A stretch of DNA of 59,387 nucleotides from positions 1 to 59,387 of the forward strand of contig NZ_CACWPP010000013.1 of assembly GCF_902762735.1 (NCBI RefSeq). The letters are read 5' to 3'. The notes under the pieces are model-generated. The model was not told the origin of the DNA, did no database searches, and worked only from the letters and a program-made list of their open reading frames with translations. Shown one piece after another: positions 8,666-11,295 of the stretch (positions are counted from its first letter, which is position 1; the number at the start of each line of letters is the position of its first letter). The stretch is from an uncultured Ruminococcus sp. GTDB taxonomy: Bacteria > Bacillota > Clostridia > Oscillospirales > Ruminococcaceae. Both the position numbers and the translations under genes were made by a program.

Positions 8666-8764
8666 CTCCCAATTTTGATGTGTATTGCTGATGATACAAA
8701 ATGGCTGTTCTTTCGTATTGTTCCCCCGCCTTCGGAGGGGGAACAATACACAGCCAAATTGGGA
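8666..8764. repeat. palindromic element type A, copy A1 (with central hairpin)
   Basis: The ends are inverted repeats: CCCAATTTTGATGTGTATTG on the left, and on the right the reverse complement of a CCCAATTTGGTTGTGTATTG-like end (one base differs in this copy). The centre is a GC-rich hairpin, TTGTTCCCCC/GGGGGAACAA. It is nearly identical to A2 at 31052-31151. B1 follows 8 bp later. No coding capacity; MITE-like. Confidence 0.85.
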
Positions 8765-8899: not shown

Positions 8900-8996
8900 A
8901 AAAGTATAACTGTTGACAGCATAAAAATGCAGACGGGCGAAAAGCGCTTCGCAGAAAAAAATAAATGCAAAAATCAGCAGATCGTGTTATTATAAT

Positions 8997-9660
8997 ATCA
9001 CAGCAAGGACAACGGACAAAACAAAGCGAAAGATGCTGATGCGAGTTCGGGCTTGCTAAAAGGACCGGAAAGGAGCGTAAACGCTGTATCGGGTCGGGGA
9101 AGCTCTCCTGTGGGAGAGAAGCCTATATGGCTGACCCGATCGTTACGGAATGCACTTATCCATTAATTTTTGTAGTCCTGTGTGAAACTGCACAGCACAC
9201 CTGTTCTATGGTCCTGACAGACGGTGTGAGGGCGCAGGGGATCACGGCGTGCCGACGCTGAAAAAAAGGATGAGATCCATGCGAAACGGGCATGGTCAAG
9301 GTAAATGGGCGCAGATGAAAGCGAGCGACGGGAAACTCGTGCGGATTCTTGCGAGAGTACAGAGAACATGCGGCAACGGCATGCCGTCGTCATAGCAGCT
9401 GATCGACGCTAAGGCGCTTGTGGCTCTTATTTCTCCCGCCATGGAGGGATTCCTTGTGACTTGGGAAGACGTTCCGAATAAAGTCACGAACAGCTATACC
9501 TGAGAATTATTTGATAAGAATTTCATGCATAGTAAAAATTACCTTGTATCCCGGACACGGCTGACACCGATCGAACGGCGATGAATGTCGGCTGTGTTGA
9601 CCGCTTAAAGACAGTCACAGCAAAAAAAGAGATTTACTGTATTATGAAGCTGTCTTGTAA
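8997..9660 (+). ncRNA. candidate large structured RNA upstream of the Ro60-like gene
   Basis: This stretch has no plausible gene but many plus-strand hairpins: 9002-9007/9052-9057; 9074-9078/9081-9085; a three-way junction closed by ATCGGGTC (9088-9095)/GACCCGAT (9133-9140), enclosing CTCTCC-TGTG-GGAGAG (9103-9118) and AGCC/GGCT (9120-9132); CCATGC/GCATGG (9277-9295); CATGC/GCATG (9367-9383); GTGACTT/AAGTCAC (9456-9487) with an inner GGAA/TTCC; and an 11-bp stem 9555-9565/9587-9597. Several loops are purine-rich (GAAA, GGAAAC), favouring the plus strand. A TATAAT at 8991-8996 is the best promoter candidate, with a poor -35. No internal terminator is visible, so it may be a free RNA or a long leader. 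Bacterial Ro orthologues are often encoded next to Y RNAs, which is the main reason for the proposal. Confidence 0.5.
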
Positions 9661-9676
9661 AAAGCGGAACTGTCTT

Positions 9677-9700
9677 TGCCGAAAGGAGAGCCTTTCGGCA
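9677..9700 (+). ncRNA. strong leader hairpin 1 before the Ro60-like gene
   Basis: TGCCGAAAGG-AGAG-CCTTTCGGCA is a perfect 10-bp stem with a purine tetraloop. It is not followed by a T-run, so it is not a terminator. Confidence 0.6.
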
Positions 9701-9722
9701 GAGCAGATGCTTCTGTAAGATG

Positions 9723-9773
9723 CGGGGCTTGTGCGGTGTGCCCGAAATAGTCAGACACACCGCATCAGCCCCG
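9723..9773 (+). ncRNA. long stem-loop directly upstream of the Ro60-like gene
   Basis: CGGGGCT (9723-9729) pairs with AGCCCCG (9767-9773), and TGCGGTGTG (9732-9740) pairs with CACACCGCA (9756-9764), separated by a 2-nt by 2-nt internal loop and closed by a 15-nt loop. A 16-bp stem with an internal bulge is reminiscent of Ro-binding Y RNA stems. Its place 38 nt before the ATG also fits autoregulation. Confidence 0.55.
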
Positions 9774-9810
9774 ATGTGAGTCGGTCAACAGAAGGAGGGT
9801 GAAAAGAACA

Positions 9811-11295
9811 ATGTTAGAACTGCTTAAAAAGCAGGCAAACCAAACCTTCACGTTAAATGGCGCAGTGACGAACCTGAGTTCGCTGAATGACTGTCTTGAC
9901 CTGTTTTACATAGCAGGCGCATCACGCAATTGCACCGAAGAAGCTGTGGAAAATGCGGTCATAAGAGCCTACGTTGAGAACAGTGAGCTTGCGCTGAGGA
10001 CTATCTTTTTTGCGAGAGATGTTCGCGGCGGCATGGGAGAGCGCAGGTTTTTCAGGCTGGCAGTGAAAGCGCTGGCAAAACATGACCCTGAGCAGGTATG
10101 CAGACTTGTTCCGCTGATAGCCGAGTATGGCAGGTACGATGACATGCTGGCACTGCTGAGAACAGAGTGCTGCGGCAGTGTGGTGGCTGAGGTCGCTGAA
10201 CAGCTGGCGGCTGATGAGGCTGCGATGTCGTCAGGCAGACCTGTCTCACTGCTGGCGAAGTGGCTGCCGTCAGCGAATGCATCGGCTGAGATGACACGCA
10301 GAAACGGCAGGTATCTGGCGCGGAAGCTGGGGCTGACGGAAGCTGTATACCGCAAAAAGCTCACGGCGCTGAGAAAGCATATAGGCATTATCGAGGACAA
10401 ACTCAGGACGAGGGATTACACCTTCGACTACGAGAAACAGACCGCAGGCTCAATGCTGAAATACCGAAATGCTTTCATCACCAATGACAGAGAAAGATAC
10501 ATGATGTATCTGGAAGAGGTCAAAAACGGCAGCAAGAAGCTCCATACAGACGTGCTGTACCCGTATGAAATAGTCAGAAGATGCTTTGACAGCAGACTGC
10601 GGACTAATAAGTGCGACAGGAAGGCGCTTGACGTGACCTGGAGAAAACTGCCGATATACGGTGACGGCTGTGAAAATGCGCTGGCAGTGGTTGACGGCTC
10701 AGGCTCAATGACATGGAACGGCTTTGGAAAAGTCAGACCGCTGGATGTTGCGATCTCGCTGGGCATATACTTTGCAGAGCATAACAAGGGCGCTTTTGGC
10801 GGGCACTTTATCACTTTCTCAAGAAGACCGCGTCTTGTTGAGGTAAAGGGAAAGGACATATATGACAAGGTCAGGTATGTCTCACAGTACAACGAATGCG
10901 CAAACACCAACATTGAGGCGACTTTCCGCCTGCTGCTGAAAACGGCTGTTGAAAACGGTCTGAAGCAGCAGGATATGCCGCAAAAACTGTACATAATATC
11001 GGACATGGAATTCGATGTGTGCGCTGAGGGCGGCAACAGCAAGAGCATGTTCGATGCTATGAAGGCGCTTTATGCGAAGAACGGTTACAAGCTGCCCGAA
11101 ATAGTGTTCTGGAACGTGAATGCGCTGACGAGGAACGTCCCTGTAACGGTGAATGAGACGGGCTGTGCGCTGGTCTCGGGCTTTACGCCAAAGCTCTTCG
11201 ATATAGTGACCGGTTCGGACCTTGAGCCGATGAAGATTATGCTGAAAGCGGTAATGAACGAGCGCTATGACCCTGTGGGTGAAGCGGTTTGCTAA
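9811..11295 (+). CDS. Ro60-like protein (DUF2828/TROVE-type helical repeats plus vWA domain)
   Basis: The 494-aa protein has an N-terminal helical-repeat region with ARDVRGGMGERRFFRLAV and LLAKWLPSANASA, then a C-terminal von Willebrand A domain with MIDAS motif DGSGS (295-299) after LAVVD. The arrangement and motifs fit the DUF2828 family, a relative of the TROVE/Ro60 ring proteins that bind Y RNAs and misfolded RNAs; assignment to DUF2828 versus TROVE is from memory of family motifs. There is no signal peptide, so it is cytosolic. ATG 9811 is chosen (GGAGGG at 9793-9798); an in-frame GTG at 9799 abuts that ribosome binding site. A terminator follows, and the structured region upstream may be its RNA partner. 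Confidence 0.8.
   Translation: MLELLKKQANQTFTLNGAVTNLSSLNDCLDLFYIAGASRNCTEEAVENAVIRAYVENSELALRTIFFARDVRGGMGERRFFRLAVKALAKHDPEQVCRLVPLIAEYGRYDDMLALLRTECCGSVVAEVAEQLAADEAAMSSGRPVSLLAKWLPSANASAEMTRRNGRYLARKLGLTEAVYRKKLTALRKHIGIIEDKLRTRDYTFDYEKQTAGSMLKYRNAFITNDRERYMMYLEEVKNGSKKLHTDVLYPYEIVRRCFDSRLRTNKCDRKALDVTWRKLPIYGDGCENALAVVDGSGSMTWNGFGKVRPLDVAISLGIYFAEHNKGAFGGHFITFSRRPRLVEVKGKDIYDKVRYVSQYNECANTNIEATFRLLLKTAVENGLKQQDMPQKLYIISDMEFDVCAEGGNSKSMFDAMKALYAKNGYKLPEIVFWNVNALTRNVPVTVNETGCALVSGFTPKLFDIVTGSDLEPMKIMLKAVMNERYDPVGEAVC

Follow-up and report, generated by a model that had tools for sequence, protein, structure and literature searches.

A predicted Ro60-fold DUF2828 protein in Ruminococcus and a conserved leader module as its probable Y-RNA-like partner

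Known bacterial RtcB RNA repair operons are arranged as rtcBA-rsr-yrlA, with RtcR. The subject of the present study is a 59,387-nucleotide (nt) contig of an uncultured Ruminococcus sp. (NZ_CACWPP010000013.1; this whole stretch is hereafter the window), in which a leader of about 0.8 kilobases (kb) runs up to a gene encoding a protein of the DUF2828 family. Bacterial YrlA, Rsr and RYPER are treated in PMC8394870, and bacterial Y RNAs also in PMC7824862. On the phage side, gp53 of mycobacteriophage LeBron, annotated as a 'Ro-like RNA binding protein', belongs to the same family as the window protein (phrog_850, 37% identity) and is described in PMC13148394 as toxic when overexpressed. Annotations of the LeBron type have been made phage by phage, and in the literature searched they come without a shared anchor, arrays or chromosomal copies; DUF2828 itself was met in that search only in plant papers.

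We consider it probable that the DUF2828 protein is a strongly diverged bacterial Ro60, distantly related to the human protein, and that a short RNA module in front of its gene is its Y-RNA-like partner, produced within the gene's own leader transcript. The two elements are as follows.

9811-11295, + strand: gene for a predicted Ro60-fold protein with DUF2828 (PF11443) and DUF7788 (PF25043, a von Willebrand factor A (vWA) domain with residues of the metal-ion-dependent adhesion site, MIDAS), from Pfam, phrog_850, AlphaFold2 and Foldseek
9606-9658, + strand: Y-like RNA module found by covariance model R2, with 5' stem AAGACAG (9608-9614), spacer (9615-9616), ACAGCA (9617-9622), loop, 3' stem CUGUCUU (9650-9656) and G (9657)

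By sequence, the window protein matches PF25043 at E 2.7e-46, PF11443 at E 1e-27 and phrog_850, labelled 'RNA-binding protein', at E 2.9e-127. The TROVE model (PF05731), which represents bacterial Ro60/Rsr, gave no match to it up to E 0.1, is absent among the families matched by 23 homologs and has no match in the window's own genome. PADLOC and NCBIfam likewise returned no match up to E 0.01, and a sequence profile of the protein retrieved nothing from the PDB up to E 1. The relationship emerges at the level of predicted structure: an AlphaFold2 model made with 23 homologs (predicted local distance difference test score 88, predicted template modelling score 0.87) gave ten Foldseek matches in the PDB with E ≤0.001, every one of them a Ro60/TROVE structure (E 3e-10 to 3e-6, 11-13% identity). 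These include 9kop, 1yvr, 9l5y, 1yvp, 2i91, 9nfa and 9nf8, with template modelling scores by query length of 0.44-0.61. The protein is predicted to adopt the Ro60 fold, a helical-repeat ring joined to a vWA domain, and residues D295, S297, S299, T366 and D398, which we take to be those of the MIDAS motif and which would form a predicted metal site, are invariant in 23 homologs. An earlier note on this DNA had called the protein a vWA protein of the DUF2828/TROVE type; the DUF2828 assignment and the predicted Ro60 fold bear this out, and the TROVE sequence model does not.

The same note had proposed a Y-RNA-like element in front of a Ro60-type gene, and such an element is present as the module at 9606-9658, which was not among the hairpins that the note named. 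In general form the module consists of a stem of 7 base pairs (bp; commonly AAGGCAC/GUGCCUU), 2 nt, the hexamer ACAGCA, a loop of 21-157 nt and the 3' strand, usually followed by G (127 of 134). It recurs, often as several copies in a string, next to DUF2828 genes of rumen and gut bacteria and of phages, mostly upstream, and reaches six copies in a bacterial upstream stretch and eight in one viral locus. The upstream stretches of homologs were taken from genomes of the genus and family together with named metagenome-assembled genomes (three Lachnospiraceae, one Ruminococcus and one Akkermansia). A finder demanding all seven pairs located 134 modules within up to 1500 nt upstream of 41 homologs, covering 40 of the 41 loci, and 3 on the opposite strand; in the genes together with their downstream flanks, which amount to twice as many bases, it located 16 modules and 4 on the opposite strand. 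Three of these 16 stand behind the gene in the Akkermansia locus L018, whose upstream stretch contains none. The ACAGCA anchor, the arrays and the chromosomal copies are not described in the literature searched, which is not proof of novelty, as the main papers on bacterial Y RNAs lay outside the search.

The unselected evidence for pairing comes from a test in which the stem was moved relative to ACAGCA over 12 spacings. In the bacterial set, which includes the window's own leader, a perfect Watson-Crick 7-bp stem with the G occurs at a spacer of 2 in 114 of 180 ACAGCA sites and in 0-3 at each of the eleven other spacers; the same test in 80 viral loci gave 132 of 478 sites at spacer 2 versus 0-11 elsewhere. 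With the G requirement dropped, spacers 0 and 1 account for 18 and 59 of the 180 sites, because many stems extend into the spacer. In the viral loci, 31% of ACAGCA sites have the stem at that place, versus 2-8% for seven rearranged hexamers. Compensatory change, which the earlier note had named as a check, is seen at all seven stem pairs, each varying on both sides among 32 short modules; these rows were selected for pairing, and their 100% pairing is not used as proof.

A first covariance model, R1, had 32 rows, the window module among them, and 99 modules of other loci picked with R1 formed the second, R2. Searched against all 59,387 bases, R2, which contains no window sequence, picks out one place at E ≤10, namely 9606-9658 (38.6 bits, E 4.3e-7), although its independence is incomplete, its training modules having been picked with a model that held the window module. 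A covariance model built from homologous upstream regions, as the earlier note had suggested, recovers the module, and the chain of several Y-like RNAs that it had envisaged holds in many homologs and not in the window, where R2 finds one.

Module and protein keep close company across genomes. Among 396 genomes of the window's family, 39 carry the protein and 32 the module (E ≤0.001), all 32 lying within the 39; the two counts apparently come from the same draw. Because 28 of the 32 module-bearing genomes fed the R2 training set (the exceptions being G242, G256, G427 and the window's genome), the family positives are partly positive by construction, and the fair negative is provided by the 357 genomes that lack the protein and also lack the module. 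A survey across the phylum took in 398 genomes, with the window's own as the sole one already known to bear modules; eight carry the protein and six have an R2 match, again all six within the eight; in the five besides the window's genome the module lies 67-302 nt upstream of the gene and on its strand. Phage records contain the protein too (682 of 50,697). R2, searched at up to E 1 against 74 gene-bearing viral loci, a set with some near duplicates, gave 195 matches, all 195 of them on the gene strand, and the strict finder returned 150 modules from 80 viral loci, against 3 on the other strand, with 126 upstream of the gene, 2 within it and 22 downstream. Closer to the window, a similar module adjoins the DUF2828 gene in L008 and L020, and a second DUF2828 gene in the window's own genome (contig C4, 45% identity) is preceded by a tandem pair of near-identical modules, each about 125 nt long (G000:C4:64469-64797, locus L086; G000 is the window's genome). 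The RNA element is real and conserved, and the window's copy is a single-module version of a system often arrayed elsewhere; the function proposed for it below is inferred.

Two further candidates were set aside: a module-like match at G000:C4:33729 (23.8 bits, E 0.11) runs antisense to a frame that by eye is LysR-like, and a supposed trans copy on G361:C12 is in fact an array directly behind an RtcB-motif frame, near the contig end.

The modules share with the YrlA Y RNA their character as stem-anchored RNAs and, in part of them, a tRNA mimic whose T-arm, acceptor and D-arm are permuted as in YrlA. The full-length Rfam YrlA model (RF02553) aligns to one module of L031 (46.1 bits, E 1.7e-7), in which the T-arm, an acceptor-like hairpin and the D-arm follow in that permuted order. 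They differ from YrlA in being anchored by the 7 bp, 2 nt and ACAGCA instead of the YrlA lower stem, the Rfam YrlA consensus having no ACAGCA at the anchor position. Of 295 distinct modules, 44 have a paired T-arm (bacterial 19 of 135, viral 23 of 143, phage 2 of 17); 251 lack one, and some have a tRNA mimic in normal order, as in the loops of L039, L041, L044 and L046. Within the window, Rfam up to E 1 gave no YrlA match.

To bacterial Ro60/Rsr loci the likeness lies in the predicted Ro60 fold, an RNA element beside the protein gene and RtcB often nearby; the difference is that the DUF2828 protein is missed by the TROVE model. For comparison, TROVE matches were sought in 269 genomes of the phylum, six of which had one, and 8.5 kb around each was searched. 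The six loci, two of them fragment-like in that the match lies in a short frame (124 amino acids; 132 amino acids with a stop), contained neither an R2 match (E ≤1) nor a strict ACAGCA module. Four of the six contain one YrlA match each, all below the cut-off (E 2.1e-5, 2.2e-5, 1.2e-3 and 0.063), in contrast to the arrays of up to six modules in bacterial and eight in viral DUF2828 loci. The two fragments, the sub-cut-off YrlA matches and the one at E 0.063 weaken this control, and our estimate for the Ro60 reading is unchanged by it because that reading does not rest on it. Small as the TROVE sample is, it suggests that a change of protein lineage may have gone along with a change of RNA anchor, the tRNA-mimic end being retained.

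The gene neighbourhoods invite the same comparison. Eighteen of 36 neighbourhoods contain, close to the gene (≤4 frames upstream or ≤3 downstream of the called DUF2828 frame), a protein with the RtcB motif GGGNHF(I/V)E, so that, as in the rtcBA-rsr-yrlA operons, such a protein stands near a Ro60-type gene and a Y-like RNA. The regulators differ, looking here like a WYL-type pair: when 39 stretches, several of them short, were compared, one WYL-type cluster was present in 26 and another in 25. The WYL label derives from one protein pair, in L017 (PADLOC WYL, E 3.7e-11 and 1.1e-9), with Pfam below cut-off, and a third member had no Pfam match. In two genomes a protein of about 154 amino acids sits between rtcB and the module array (L095:6821-7285, and L097); neither Pfam nor PADLOC matched it.

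Phage loci show the elements in other arrangements. In LeBron, two weak R2 matches (23.1 and 22.7 bits) flank a YrlA-like RNA (39.8 bits) directly behind gp53, and that RNA has a variant core, GCAGCA, at the same spacing. In Bacillus phage PJN02 (L210) the modules alternate with tRNA genes. For Listeria phage CKA15, passages of PMC12282133 report that two of the genes CKA15_059-061 are by far the most transcribed phage genes, leave them unidentified, and propose that one or more of these highly transcribed genes may be Y RNAs. We dropped CKA15_059-061 as Y RNAs, as the stretch (L213:2669-3220, OR088597.1) gives a full-model match to ROOL (RF03087, 90.1 bits, E 7e-17), just under the cut-off of 99.1. 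Three ACAGCA modules (L213:3863-4126) immediately precede the Rsr-like CKA15_055; of these, R2 gives the middle one 24.5 bits and part of the third 10.4 bits, and does not report the first.

The computation yields a predicted fold and a module family of defined strand and fixed spacing that closely accompanies the protein; from these we infer that the 7-bp stem and ACAGCA would serve as a handle gripped by the protein, with the variable loop as the working end. At some other loci, tRNA-mimic loops could bring in a partner, such as a nuclease (PNPase, as in RYPER), RtcB or tRNA-binding factors. The modules might be cut from the leader or used in place, in which case one protein could be loaded with several different adaptors. 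Loci with RtcB and the WYL-type pair would most likely be RNA repair or quality-control operons induced by RNA damage. A bolder extension, which we offer tentatively and regard as doubtful, is a modular Ro60 system of one ring protein and one handle with an array of interchangeable adaptors, among them two tRNA-mimic designs (permuted and normal, anticodon arms being present in some of the latter). Where phage and host are in conflict, in phages and RtcB/WYL operons alike, such adaptors might act as decoys for nucleases that cut tRNA or as sensors of them, RtcB mending the damage.

Several observations weigh against the view that the protein is a diverged Ro60 with the module as its Y-RNA-like partner. 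The best YrlA score among the modules, that of L031, is below the gathering cut-off of 69, and R2 is not fully independent of the window module. The window's own copy has a short loop (27 nt) with no tRNA-like part, stands singly where most homologs have several, and belongs to a gene that no RtcB or WYL gene adjoins, a further departure from the rtcBA-rsr-yrlA operons. The company is also incomplete: 7 of the 39 protein-bearing family genomes are without a module at E 0.001, two of which (G273 and G429) yield weaker matches (26.3 and 22.3 bits) in a search confined to the stretch and several others of which are gene fragments; 2 of the 8 protein-bearing phylum genomes are without one (G546, and G754, a broken fragment); and the strict finder finds none in 32 of the 80 viral loci (48 with).

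Of the rival explanations, the one that survives best is a cis-regulatory leader, in which the modules would be binding sites on the mRNA for autocontrol by the protein or by a tRNA-sensing factor, with no separate RNA. The position of most modules in front of the gene and on its strand, as counted above for viral loci (126 of 150) and likewise seen in family loci, speaks for it, as does the window module, which ends about 150 nt ahead of the start codon. Modules behind the gene (L018 and the 22 viral cases) speak against it, as do those of phage L210, split from the gene by tRNA genes, and the tRNA mimics inside loops. Single modules also stand beside another gene, away from DUF2828, at L083:1037-1096 and L084:1034-1091 (two species of one genus), each with a promoter-like site (10 of 12) and a terminator-like hairpin; either kind of site is expected 0.3-0.7 times per stretch by chance, and it is therefore their conservation in both L083 and L084 that carries weight. 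On balance we judge a purely cis-acting leader unlikely.

We think it more unlikely still that the leader is a single new large structured RNA of 600-800 nt working with the protein, one of the forms in which the earlier note had raised an RNA partner for the window. Besides the module, the leader contains these features.

9049-9155, + strand: structured segment including the three-way junction 9088-9140 (blastn against G018:C73: 9049-9105 at 81%, 9116-9155 at 90%)
9601-9606, + strand: 5' strand CCGCUU of an outer 6-bp stem around the module, folding with 9662-9667
9662-9667, + strand: 3' strand AAGCGG of the outer stem, by fold prediction
9670-9706, + strand: very stable hairpin, its top being the 9677-9700 hairpin of the earlier note (z -6.45 for 9670-9710)
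9723-9773, + strand: long bulged hairpin (z -3.68 for 9710-9790)

Leader, gene and named hairpins are all present as the earlier note described them, and the named hairpins fold better than dinucleotide shuffles, against which all z-scores of leader segments were taken: -3.14 for the three-way junction (9077-9150) and -3.49 for the stem at 9545-9600, besides the two hairpins listed; the module segment (9600-9670) reaches -3.16. The whole leader folds at about -4.8 (20 shuffles, simple script), and some 300 nt (8997 to about 9305), three-way junction included, share patches with the congener G018, both of which favour a large RNA. The count of at least ten hairpins was overstated, since 9160-9300 (z -1.86) and 9300-9440 (z -0.26) are closer to chance and the longer junction piece 9049-9155 gives only -1.25. 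Conservation is equally uneven: the module is conserved, the three-way junction region is the sole named hairpin visibly conserved, and that in one congener (G018/L008), and the hairpins at 9670-9706 and 9723-9773, between module and gene, have no equivalent in an alignment with the L008 and L020 leaders. L008 has a predicted outer stem at the same place as the window's and of different sequence.

Homology searches with the leader likewise tell against one large RNA. By blastn in 100 relatives only G018 matched, three other weak matches (G014, G083 and G080) lying elsewhere; G014 and G083 have no DUF2828 match. The weak matches L003 and L004 were rejected as lying inside long open frames of other genes, L005 having been viewed roughly. 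A phage search with the leader gave no match, and the 20-mer GGCTGACCCGATCGTTACGG of the leader is present in no viral contig (a 15-mer occurs in 25 viral stretches). In the Rfam check that the earlier note had suggested, no family reaches the gathering cut-off in the window, only two chance-like matches appearing up to E 1, and none of the ornate large RNAs (ROOL, GOLLD and OLE) matches the 0.8-kb leader. With one module as the only match of R2, the single large RNA is not supported in the window; for the segment from 8997 to about 9305, a second RNA specific to this clade or a leader with a regulatory role is possible.

A mobile element or recombination site (attC-like arrays) independent of protein function, suggested by the tandem copies on one strand, the variable inserts and the near-identical duplicates beside the paralog (L013), is highly improbable given the close tie to one protein family, the tRNA-like loops and recurring neighbours identified as RtcB and WYL-type proteins, no search having been aimed at integrases.

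In the window itself, the likelier start of the DUF2828-DUF7788 gene is ATG 9811, with the stop at 11295 on the + strand; the program-made list of open reading frames places it at GTG 9799, where the 3' end of the Shine-Dalgarno-like AGAAGGAGGG lies, and ATG 9811 is therefore preferred. A LytTR response regulator is encoded on the opposite strand, a cyclase-family gene and a methyltransferase follow downstream, and rtcB of this genome is on contig C26, away from the gene. Between the response regulator gene and the leader, 8700-8758 forms a long, almost perfect hairpin (GTATTGTTCCCCC...GGGGGAACAATAC), at which an Rfam microRNA match is chance-like (E 0.51). A scan for + strand terminators did not call the hairpin 9670-9706. 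One further feature lies at the leader's start.

8991-8996, + strand: candidate -10 box TATAAT of the leader promoter, from sequence, followed by ATCACAGCA (8997-9005)

The -10 candidate is weak, as a sigma-70 consensus scan found no + strand site at 8991-8996. Counterparts of ATCACAGCA are AATAAGATCACAGCA in L008 and TTATAATATAATCACAGCA in L020. Shortly after the TATAAT-like box, ACAGCA occurs at 9000-9005 and at the corresponding position of L008 and L020, the three long leaders; in all three this ACAGCA has no matching 5' stem.

Why bacteria keep Ro60 and Y RNAs is largely open. A 'domain of unknown function', DUF2828, is here linked to the predicted Ro60 fold and to a candidate RNA partner with a short handle, and natural arrays that set many loops on one handle would make recruitment through the Y RNA loop directly testable. 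The system points to an unrecognised branch of Ro60/Y RNA particles.

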